From the NCBI RefSeq assembly GCF_003234855.1, contig NZ_QKTO01000001.1, positions 62,001 through 126,000 of the forward strand: a DNA stretch of 64,000 bases, written 5' to 3'. This DNA comes from Curtobacterium sp. MCBD17_032 (GTDB lineage Bacteria; Actinomycetota; Actinomycetes; Actinomycetales; Microbacteriaceae). The notes under the pieces are model-generated. The model saw only the letters and a program-made list of their open reading frames with translations, did no database searches and was not told where the DNA came from. The first letter of the stretch is position 1, and each line of letters begins with the position of its first letter. Both the position numbers and the translations under genes were made by a program. Shown one piece after another: positions 1 to 4,570 of this stretch.

Positions 1-283
1 GGAACGCGAACGGCAGCGGGCCTCCCGGGAAGTCGCCGTCCGCAGATGCGGTGAGCTGAACGGCGCTACCGTCGCCGTTCTCGTACGCGGTCGGCCCGAG
101 AGTGATTCTTGGTGCGATCTGGTGCTCCCGGATCCACTGCTCGATCTCTGCGGACCCCGTGTAGGTGGTGCCGTCGTCGGTGACGGACGCGTCCGCTGCG
201 AAGACGGCGAGCAGCGCGTCAGCGTCGTGTCGGTTCGTCGCGCCGATGAAGTCCTTCACGGGGCCTGCGGGGATCTCGGTCAT
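1..283 (-). CDS. SnoaL/NTF2-like protein, 3' end outside window
   Basis: The reading frame begins with ATG at 281-283 (MTEIPAGPVKDFIGATN) behind a good ribosome site (GGAGAAG) and runs off the left edge, so about 94 residues are visible. The pattern N-RHDADALLAVFAADASVTDDG followed by a tyrosine/threonine-rich strand and an EIEQWI helix is the start of an NTF2-like cone fold, as in SnoaL-type polyketide cyclases and small stress or epoxide-hydrolase-like enzymes. No catalytic assignment can be made. It is divergent from the MarR gene at 415 and is the natural candidate target of that regulator. GC content looks lower than in the chromosome to the right, in keeping with a mobile origin. Confidence 0.72.
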   Translation of the reverse strand, partial: MTEIPAGPVKDFIGATNRHDADALLAVFAADASVTDDGTTYTGSAEIEQWIREHQIAPRITLGPTAYENGDGSAVQLTASADGDFPGGPLPFAF

Positions 284-961: not shown

Positions 962-1375
962 TTAGCCCTCGATTGTGCGGACATCGACGAATAGCCCGGG
1001 CGGCGGTGCTGTGTACGGCAGCGGGTCACCCGGCTCCGTGGTCCCGGACGTCTTCGCGAACGGCCCCACGGAGCTCAGGAGGACGCCCATGTGGTGATCG
1101 GCGTGGTCACGCCACCACACGCTCATCCCGGTCGCTCCGTCGTTCCGGAAGTGCTCCCAGCTGCGCCAGAGCGCATCGAGACGCGCCACGGCCTCCGGGT
1201 GCATCCACCAGCGAGGGTCCCACCGGAAGTCGCCCTTCGGGCTGACCTCGCGGCGGTAGGTGACGGTCAGGAACTCCCGCACGAACTCGTCGGCCGAGCC
1301 GTAGAACGTCTCGGGCTCCTCGAGCACGTCGTCGTCCTCGTCGATGTGGCCGTCCCACTCCGCGACGGCGCTCAT
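962..1375 (-). CDS. DUF4913 conjugation-associated protein
   Basis: The 137-residue soluble acidic protein starts at MSAVAEWDG. That ATG (1373-1375) overlaps the stop of the upstream coupling-protein remnant by an ATGA junction, which decides the start over a longer in-frame option. The core with WDPRWWMHPEA, then ALWRSWEHFRND and a WWRDHADHHMGVL stretch, is the DUF4913 signature. In actinobacterial plasmids and integrative elements such genes sit directly after the TraG/VirD4-type coupling protein, as here. Function is unknown; the position suggests an accessory of DNA transfer. The frame is intact although its upstream partner is broken. Confidence 0.8.
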   Translation of the reverse strand: MSAVAEWDGHIDEDDDVLEEPETFYGSADEFVREFLTVTYRREVSPKGDFRWDPRWWMHPEAVARLDALWRSWEHFRNDGATGMSVWWRDHADHHMGVLLSSVGPFAKTSGTTEPGDPLPYTAPPPGLFVDVRTIEG

Positions 1376-2821
1376 CGGCCGTCCTCCGCCTCGAGCGGCT
1401 GCACCGTCGAGGCGTTCAGCCACGGGTTGCCCTCTGCCGGCAGAGAGGACGCTAGCGACTCCGTGCGCTCGGCGCGGGCGGCGTCCTCGTAGGCGGCGAT
1501 CGACGCACGAACCTTCTCAGCGTCGGAACCTTCGTACCAGGGCGCCGTCTTCACCATCGAGGACCGCAAACCCGACGCGATCAAGATCGCGCGGCCACGG
1601 GGCAGCTCCGCCAACTCGGACGGGTCAAGGATGCGGCGGCGGTTGTTCTGCACGCTCGTCGACCGGACACCCTTGTTCATCGAGTACGAGATGGTCTCGT
1701 GGTCGTAGTCGCCGATCAGCTCGGACAACTCGCGCAGGAACTCAATCTCCTTGACACCGCCGAGGTACACGACCTCGTTGGCGGCGCTGAACAGCTTCCG
1801 CATGCCGGCGAGGGAGAACACTCGACGCCCTGGGACCAGGACTGGAAGATCGACATGATCGGGATCCCGCGCGACCCGTAGTGCGAGTACAGGTCCGGGA
1901 GGTCCTTCCACCGGCAGACGTTCGCGGCTTCGTCGAGGATGCACAGCAGCGGCGTGGCCATGCGGCCGCCGGGCTGCGTCTTCGCCAGGCGCTCGCCTGC
2001 CTCGACAACGGCGACCGTCAGCGCGGTCACCAGCGGCGCGGCCGTGCCCTCACCCTCCTTGGAGAGCGAGTAGAGGGTGTCGGTGCCGCGCACGAACTCG
2101 TCGGGGTTGAACTACGGGCGACGGTCGCCGCGCATGTTCCCGCCGACGGGCGTCACCCACCGGCCGATGCAGCTGTTCTGCAGCCAGCCCGCCATCTTCC
2201 GGCCGTCCCGTAGACGGCGGCGCGCTGCCGCTCAGAGGCGCGCGTCTCGGACTCGACGGCGTCCGCGACGAGCGGGTAGCCACCGTTCCGGAGGACGGCC
2301 ACCATCTCGCGGTTGTCGGGGTCGGTCAGCCACGTGAACACGTCGGTGATCGCGCGTCCGTCGAGGGCGGCTGCGAGCAGCATGCCGGCGAGGAGGTTCT
2401 TGCCGACGGGGTCGAAGTACGCATCGCCCTTGTCGCCGGGCTCGTGGGAACCGGAGGCGAAGTGCCCGGCCAGTTTCGCGGCCGTGGTGTCGTCGGTGAC
2501 GTAGGAGAGCGGGTTCCACCACCAGGTGGGCTCCTCGTCGACGACCTGCTGCGGGTCGAACACCCACGTCGTGCCGACCTCATCGCGCAGCTTCCGGGTC
2601 GTCTCGACGGTGTCGGGCTTGTTCGACGTCGCCAACAGGGCGCCGGGGGCGGCGAGGATCGCCGGGACGACCAGCGAGGTCGTCTTACCCACGCGGGGGC
2701 CGGCGATGCCGATCGTGACGTCCTCCCACGATGCGTAGAGCATCTCCCCGGAGTGCACGTCCTCCCCCAGCGGGACGCCGGGGCAGCTCTACAAGCCGAG
2801 GCGGGTGCCCTTCCCGAGCGG
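1372..2821 (-). pseudogene. Decayed TraG/VirD4-type conjugative coupling protein
   Basis: Read from right to left, the frames give a type IV secretion coupling ATPase. The stretch GPRVGKTTSLVVP is Walker A, WVFDPQQ and WWWNPLSY follow, then LLCILDEAANVC as Walker B, and IPIMSIFQSWSQG. The intact protein would pump DNA through a conjugation channel. At least four lesions are visible: an in-frame TAG at 2789-2791, a one-base frameshift near 2195-2202, a TAG at 2112-2114, and a second frameshift near 1819-1824. After it the frame continues VFSLAGMRKLFSAANEV to a stop at 1372. The N-terminal membrane region is missing because the homology stops against the alcohol dehydrogenase stop codon. Several independent lesions argue for true decay, not one sequencing error. 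Confidence 0.85.
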
Positions 2822-3865
2822 TCAGAGCGTCGGGACGACCACCGCGCGGCCGGACAGCTCGCCGGCCTCGAGCTTGCGGTACGCCTCGAGCGCGTCGGCG
2901 AGGGCGTACCGCTCGACGTCCGGCTCGATCTGCCCCGCGCGGTACATCGCGACGACGTCGTGCAGGTCCTCGATGGTGCCCCAGTAGGTGTTCGTGATCG
3001 TCGACTCGTACGGCGTCGAGAAGAAGTCCCACTCGGTGGTGCCGCCGGCGATGCCGACCACGGTGCAGCGCCCGCCGACGGCCATCGACGCCTGCGCGGT
3101 CTTGATGGTCGGGGTCGCGCCGACGAAGTCGAACGCCGTGTCGACGCCCTTGCCGCCGGTGATCTCACGGATCCGCGCGACCTGGTCGGGACCGCCGGGG
3201 ACGGTGATCGCGCCGCGCTCGGCAGCGCGGGCCATGGCGTCCTCCTTCATGTCCGTCGCGATGACGGTCGCGCCGGTGAGGGCGGTGAGGATCTGGACGG
3301 CGATCTGCCCGAGGCCGCCCAGGCCCACGACGAGCGCGTACTTCCCGCCGCCGGCCAGGTTCGGCAGGGAGTTCTTGACCGCGTGGTACGGCGTGAGGGC
3401 CGCGTCGCTCAGGGGTGCGGCGGCGACGGGGTCGGCGTCGCCGAGCGGCACGAGGTTGCGGGCGGGCACGGTCACGTACTCGGCCATGCCGCCGTCCCGC
3501 CCCAGGCCGATGGCCATGTACGGGTTCGTGGCGGCGTTCTCGCAGTACGTGTCCTGCCCCTTCGAGCAGTACCGGCAGTGCCCGCAGCCGACCGGCCCGT
3601 AGACCAGGTACGCGTCGCCCTCCGCGAAGCCGGTGACACCGTCCCCGACGGACTCGACCCAGCCGGAGTTCTCGTGTCCGAGGACGAACCCGGGCCGCTG
3701 TGCGCCGGGCTGCCCCTCCTGGAACTCGCGGTAGACGGCGACGTCGGAGTGGCACGCACCGGCACCGGCGACCTTGAGGAGCACCTCCCCCGGCCCGGGC
3801 GTGGGCTTCTCGACCTCGGTGAGGGAGGGGAACGTCCGGTACTGCTCGAACACGACTGCACGCAT
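2822..3865 (-). CDS. Zinc-dependent NAD(P)-alcohol dehydrogenase (MDR family)
   Basis: The 347-residue medium-chain dehydrogenase has a GroES-like N-terminal domain with the catalytic-zinc residues C in GACHSD and GHE. The structural-zinc loop is GCGHCRYCSKGQDTYC. The Rossmann domain (about residues 165-300) carries VVGLGGLGQIAVQ, and an acidic residue after strand 2 (ATDMKED) suggests NAD preference. Length is normal for the family. It likely oxidises a primary alcohol or reduces an aldehyde in the cytoplasm; the substrate is not readable. It is transcribed alone, divergent from the OsmC gene. Its stop codon abuts the decayed conjugative element. Confidence 0.9.
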   Translation of the reverse strand: MRAVVFEQYRTFPSLTEVEKPTPGPGEVLLKVAGAGACHSDVAVYREFQEGQPGAQRPGFVLGHENSGWVESVGDGVTGFAEGDAYLVYGPVGCGHCRYCSKGQDTYCENAATNPYMAIGLGRDGGMAEYVTVPARNLVPLGDADPVAAAPLSDAALTPYHAVKNSLPNLAGGGKYALVVGLGGLGQIAVQILTALTGATVIATDMKEDAMARAAERGAITVPGGPDQVARIREITGGKGVDTAFDFVGATPTIKTAQASMAVGGRCTVVGIAGGTTEWDFFSTPYESTITNTYWGTIEDLHDVVAMYRAGQIEPDVERYALADALEAYRKLEAGELSGRAVVVPTL

Positions 3866-4495: not shown

Positions 4496-4537
4496 GACGG
4501 GAGGCCCGCCCACCGAACGGTGGGTGGGCCTCCCGTC
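4496..4537 (+). terminator. Long hairpin terminator, GGGAGGCC family
   Basis: A 19-base stem begins GACGGGAGGCCC and is closed by GGGCCTCCCGTC, with a GAAC loop and one imperfect pair. It lies 17 bases after the OsmC stop. There is no U-tract, as is usual in high-GC actinobacteria. It belongs to the stem family also seen at 7756, 33573, 50467, 54610, 55486 and 63505. Confidence 0.85.
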
Positions 4538-4570
4538 CGTCTCCCCACCGGCGGGATGCACAATGGCCTG

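Follow-up and report, generated by a model that had tools for sequence, protein, structure and literature searches.

The left end of the window (the whole 64,000-nucleotide stretch analysed here, G000:C1:62001-126000, from a draft Curtobacterium genome of 26 contigs) carries a broken TraG/VirD4-type coupling gene and an adjoining DUF4913 gene at the edge of a variable chromosomal locus. We regard this pair as probably an ordinary plasmid fossil, made up of a dead coupling gene of plasmid type and its DUF4913 neighbour. The coupling gene is a case of a conjugation gene maintained by selection until not long before its breakage; in other respects the remnant reflects ordinary genome decay. The locus is a spot in Curtobacterium where DNA of very varied length separates two convergent backbone genes, and a close relative has a clean empty site there.

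The comparison set comprised 66 genomes of the same genus, namely the source of the window (G000) and 65 others, and longer flanks were aligned in ten relatives. Lesions were placed in a MAFFT alignment with the copies of genomes G059, G013 and G027, the first two serving as references for the four lesions. We take the relevant G013 contig (G013:C4) to be NZ_JADKRX010000012.1 of Curtobacterium sp. VKM Ac-1395, and the G027 contig is presumably NZ_QKSM01000017.1 of Curtobacterium sp. MCSS17_008.

The coupling gene and its lesions

The remnant occupies positions 1372-2818 of the reverse strand and was recognised by Pfam profiles, by alignment with the G059, G013 and G027 copies and by tblastn. 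Three of its pieces match profiles of the ATPase core above the curated cut-offs, PF02534 at 2153-2758 (reverse strand, E 7.6e-8) and PF12696 in two parts at 1716-2093 (1.8e-14) and 1372-1944 (1.2e-10; both reverse strand). Walker A (GPRVGKTT) and Walker B (LLCILDEA) motifs, as these are commonly defined, are both present in the pieces. The tblastn match corresponds to residues 129-614 of the intact, 614-residue G013 protein, and the first 128 residues are absent. Because the remnant starts at residue 129, it is without the N-terminal membrane segments, which were read by eye in the G013 protein; the preliminary description had rightly reported that the N-terminus is missing.

The remnant has no continuous reading frame. 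It is interrupted on the reverse strand by a nonsense codon at 2789-2791, a one-base loss causing a frameshift at 2201-2202, a second nonsense codon at 2112-2114 and a second one-base loss causing a frameshift at 1821-1822. When judged against G059 and G013, all four lesions of the ATPase gene lie where they had first been described. They are not an accident of frame calling, because G059 reads through the corresponding stretch in a single open frame of 606 codons. Judged from its sequence, the remnant is now without conjugative function.

That these lesions are sequencing or assembly errors is hardly credible. The lesions are few and the genome is a draft in 26 contigs, but the frameshifts lie outside long homopolymers, the alcohol dehydrogenase (ADH) gene next to the remnant and the genes beyond it are open, a base error cannot produce the N-terminal loss, and the copy in G027 has separate breakages of its own.

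The adjoining DUF4913 frame is intact, as first described, and open at 962-1375 on the reverse strand (PF16259); the same pair is found on the plasmid-like contig of G013 and on a Leifsonia plasmid. The profile match spans 962-1423 (reverse strand, E 2.1e-33, profile positions 1-100 of 104), and the ATG at 1375, which overlaps the stop of the coupling gene, appears more likely to be the start than 1423. An open frame is no sign of retention here, because at the rate of lesions in TraG only 1.15 would be expected in DUF4913, with a probability of 0.32 of none; chance would give the open frame, and the idea that selection has kept the gene finds no support in the lesion count. A literature search under the name DUF4913 returned no paper, and related searches gave nothing relevant as judged by titles and the starts of abstracts.

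Further left lie two island genes outside the coupling module. A MarR-type regulator is encoded at 415-951 on the forward strand (PF01047), and the homology with G059 stops before it. A SnoaL-like gene (1-283, reverse strand; PF12680) runs off the left end of the window.

Selection and the timing of decay

The coupling genes of G000 and G059 were compared over 452 codons alignable in four copies, by simple counting (NG86) uncorrected for codon bias; the comparison yields 64 synonymous and 33 non-synonymous differences (dS 0.21, dN/dS 0.16). For DUF4913 the same two genomes give a dS of 0.27 and a dN/dS of 0.17. Polarising the TraG changes by G013 and G027 assigns 27 synonymous changes, 11 non-synonymous changes and one stop to the G000 branch, and 26 synonymous and 14 non-synonymous changes to the G059 branch. 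Neutral simulations, run 300 times under each of four mutation settings, gave median dN/dS values of 0.79-1.55 and a minimum of 0.42 in 1200 runs. Because the ratio of 0.16 compares with a simulated neutral minimum of 0.42, selection acted through most of the divergence between the two coupling genes and the decay came late. The dS of TraG lies within the range of the flanking genes against G059 (0.10-0.75). As read from these sequences, the constraint before decay could date from a plasmid phase or from a chromosomal one.

The low ratios of both genes would also suit a truncated pair that once performed a function of its own in the chromosome, for example by providing a coupling protein or DUF4913 to mobilisable plasmids, and that died only recently. 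Remains consisting of the pair only, in G000, G059 and G027, and the smaller number of pieces found with neighbouring stretches of the plasmid-like contig point in the same direction. We nevertheless consider such a history distinctly unlikely: the constraint could date from plasmid residence, the G000 and G027 coupling genes are broken and that of G059 has both Walker motifs changed, chance suffices to explain the open DUF4913 frame, and pieces of the pair may simply be easier to find, as the conservation of the stretches was not equalised. Quite improbable, too, is that the coupling gene and DUF4913 persist in Curtobacterium as a two-gene chromosomal unit under purifying selection, without transfer apparatus, and that the window holds such a unit just after its death; if this were true, the unit would perhaps serve passing mobilisable plasmids.

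The junction with the chromosomal backbone

The zinc-type ADH gene (2822-3865, reverse strand; PF08240, PF00107) is a single open frame and part of the conserved backbone, with an orthologue beside the same convergent neighbour in many genomes of the genus. This neighbour, a gamma-glutamyltransferase-like gene named from its sequence (C1:31769-33646), faces ADH in G000 and is the same wherever it could be located in relatives. Three bases past the ADH stop (2819-2821) are common to the empty site of genome G072 and to G059 and form the junction between backbone and island. The coupling fragment starts at 2818, 3 bp past the ADH stop, and hence does meet it as had been claimed. Because ADH is conserved, and the spacer between it and its neighbour measures 86 bp in G072 as against 31 kb in G000, the junction at 2819 truly separates conserved backbone from variable DNA.

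Spacers, defined as the distance between aligned ends, were obtained for 32 of the 38 tabulated genomes, which are those with the ADH locus to hand among the 66 searched; in the other six the neighbour lay outside the 1.5 kb covered. The spacer is shorter than 200 bp in 13 genomes, 0.4-1.4 kb in 11, 2.5-5.3 kb in six, and longer than 20 kb in G059 and G000. G072 is the closest of the ten relatives whose flanks were compared, with nine aligned pieces of at least 1 kb (five at 92-95% and four at 81-89% nucleotide identity), and its dS to G000 is lower than that of G059 in 18 of the 21 genes measured for both.

The 31 kb island was scanned through 20 of the 28 proteins called outside the window, plus the window's own proteins. 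It encodes a chaplin-domain repeat protein, a YhcG-type nuclease, Lsr2, an IS3-type transposase, regulators, a short-chain dehydrogenase and a protein weakly like signal peptidases (below the Pfam cut-off). The segment G000:C1:34114-45399, with the chaplin-domain repeat protein and secreted-looking proteins, is about 79-83% identical in nucleotides to G059 and is absent from the empty site of G072. On the other side of ADH, positions 4496-4560 of the window, which follow an OsmC-like gene (named from sequence only), match both of their own strands and recur elsewhere in the genome at 79-90% identity; they probably represent a common type of terminator.

At the far end of the island, the left flank of G000 (C1:28.8-33.6 kb) shows a dS of 0.53-0.60 to G072 and 0.56-0.75 to G059, and G059 and G072 are 86-87% identical over this stretch and its left neighbour. 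Because the flank is about equally far from two genomes that are so alike there, G000 seems to have exchanged DNA on the left side, and the island may have arrived or been reshaped through such an exchange. The three genes concerned, at G000:C1:28797-33646, have a dS of 0.53-0.60 to G072 as against 0.02-0.23 for twelve genes further left, and look as if they had been imported by recombination.

The copy at the same site in G059

Synteny of the coupling gene with ADH in many chromosomes, named at the outset as an observation that would tell against a decaying integrative element, was not found: among the 65 other genomes of the genus, only G059 gave an alignment running from the coupling gene into ADH, although the arrangement is thereby not private to one strain. 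G059, which is a single contig, has the same pair at the same ADH stop at 90-92% nucleotide identity. It differs from G000 in that its coupling gene is an open frame (606 codons) and has lost its N-terminus at another point, and it shares none of the four lesions of G000. Its Walker A lysine is replaced by arginine and its Walker B aspartate by glutamate; such changes should abolish or cripple an ATPase.

The two copies break off at the same base past the ADH stop. When they are read against Clavibacter and other homologues, the coupling side resumes at residue 129 in G000, as opposed to residue 64 followed by an internal loss in G059. A shared old junction with later internal deletions was suggested by the MAFFT alignment, which seemed to show one fusion point, and was set aside on this reading, in which the TraG-side ends differ. 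A single truncation event is thus no longer counted as proven by the alignment, and a shared older junction is possible.

The common ADH base is one of the points that speak against a plasmid fossil: independent deletions need not end at the same base, as an old junction common to both copies would, and late, separate decay gives no reason to expect it. An old common junction would, however, make the purifying signal odd. In G072 an apparent hairpin, read by eye, follows the ADH stop and might favour breakage there; selection against deletions that reach into ADH also narrows the range of junction points.

Search for an integrative element

The preliminary description had taken the junction for the boundary of a decaying integrative element. 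The broken coupling gene does stand at a true island edge, but the search for an attachment repeat, an integrase and a relaxase gave no sign of an integrative element. Strains without the element had been expected to reveal its attachment site; G072 supplies the empty site, yet none of the 14-base stretches in the last 50 bp of ADH has a second exact copy in C1:1-82000. An attachment site at the end of ADH was rejected on these grounds; between the junction and the left end of the island (C1:33501-38500), four short matches of 11 bases are scattered.

Nor were phage-type integrase genes, among the proteins scanned, or MobA/VirD2 relaxase genes found to the left of the window, where such genes had been anticipated. 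Phage-type integrase families are absent from the 20 island proteins scanned of the 28 called outside the window, and the three PF00589 matches in the genome lie on contigs C6, C7 and C22, none on the window's contig. A relaxase of the MobA/VirD2 family (PF03432) is absent from the G000 genome by a search that was positive in one of 14 controls. G000 likewise gave no match to the ATP-binding protein encoded ahead of TraG on G013:C4, in a genome-wide search run without a positive control; a DNA query spanning the gene of this protein does recover G013. When the proteins called from the first 40,000 bases of G013:C4 were compared with C1:1-82000, TraG and DUF4913 alone gave matches.

We therefore consider it unlikely that an integrative and conjugative element, now decaying, inserted at the 3' end of ADH and has its edge in the window. 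The junction at the ADH stop in two species, a locus that accepts inserts of many sizes and a resolvase-like gene in the G059 island would agree with such an element. Against it stand, besides the unrepeated ADH end and the failure to find a phage-type integrase among the scanned island proteins, a MobA/VirD2 relaxase or the ATP-binding protein, the location of the closest intact relative on a plasmid-like contig and the DNA past the ADH stop, which differs in G019, G020, G025 and G007.

Remains of the pair elsewhere in the genus

A decayed TraG-DUF4913 pair is also present in G027, at 83% nucleotide identity. Like that of G000 it stands without further plasmid genes, no other G013:C4 protein matching its 20 kb surroundings, but it lies at another site and its lesions are different, one being a nonsense codon in DUF4913. 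Shorter pieces of the coupling gene, at 71-89% nucleotide identity, occur at G027:C5:23051-23136, G061:C51:155460-155544, G065:C31:19989-20240 and G008:C63:52734-53067. G076:C20 holds a further TraG-DUF4913 piece, and stretches of G012:C1 and G001:C1 also match DUF4913. In two loci, L082 (G027:C9; 2310-6770 and 7219-9163) and L132 (G076:C20; 7515-7826 and 8929-11196), the DUF4913 remnant has a long surface-protein-like gene nearby, and by eye these two long genes are similar in type. A relative of the relaxase stretch lies about 7 kb from the DUF4913 remnant on G076:C20. In G072, whose ADH site is empty, G072:C5:370722-371069 and 418879-419226 are 70-71% alike to the gene that follows the relaxase on G013:C4.

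A 6 kb query from upstream of the G013:C4 TraG gene matches three of the 66 genomes and the relaxase stretch seven, the source G013 being included in both counts; G000, G059 and G027 match the latter only through the DUF4913/TraG end within the query. These queries differ in length and conservation and at most four candidates per genome were scored, so the counts are no fair test of whether TraG-DUF4913 remains are over-represented.

Probable origin of the pair and comparison with plasmids

To account for the pair as a plasmid fossil, we infer a source among actinobacterial conjugative plasmids of a Microbacteriaceae kind, with an ATP-binding protein, TraG, DUF4913 and a convergent relaxase unit. 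The TraG-DUF4913 pair would have landed in the variable spacer between the convergent gamma-glutamyltransferase-like and ADH genes, the remaining conjugation genes being lost or never arriving. A deletion would then have brought residue 129 of the coupling protein up against the bases just past the ADH stop, after which two nonsense codons and two frameshifts would have broken the rest of the gene. Because G072, which is closer to G000 than G059 is, has no island, and the island is partly common to G000 and G059, loss or lateral transfer must be added to this sequence of events. A recombinase may once have been involved, because the resolvase-like gene of the G059 island is 37% identical to one on G013:C4.

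PF12696 matches occur in 19 of the 66 genomes. In seven of the eight such genomes with at most three contigs the match lies outside the contig ranked first as the chromosome, and in G059 it lies on the chromosome, its only contig; in draft genomes the contig of the match is not assignable to plasmid or chromosome. A search with residues 1-493 of the G013 coupling protein matched 549 plasmid records, all at less than 60% identity.

The closest intact relative, G013:C4, measures 40,265 bp, has a 77 bp terminal direct overlap of the kind seen in circular contigs, and encodes a ParA-like ATPase, a PF03432 relaxase, an M23 peptidase, TraG and DUF4913. The ATP-binding protein upstream of its TraG has no Pfam match and is VirB4-like by position only. 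We call the contig plasmid-like on the strength of its terminal overlap and gene content rather than of a finished record. It shares with the window a coupling gene followed by an overlapping DUF4913 gene, at 79% nucleotide identity over 993-2818, and differs in its open frame of 614 residues with the N-terminal membrane part, its other conjugation genes and its circular appearance.

On plasmid unnamed2 of Leifsonia shinshuensis INR9 (NZ_CP043643.1) the annotated order is ATP-binding protein, TraG type, DUF4913, two hypothetical proteins, relaxase and MobC, with the hypothetical, relaxase and MobC genes convergent with DUF4913; its coupling protein is 55% identical in amino acids to the first 493 residues of that of G013. 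Of this pattern of ATP-binding protein, TraG, DUF4913 and relaxase, G000 keeps the order of the pair, and the other parts are unmatched in C1:1-82000. Unlike the remnant in the window, the Leifsonia genes are annotated as whole and are extrachromosomal.
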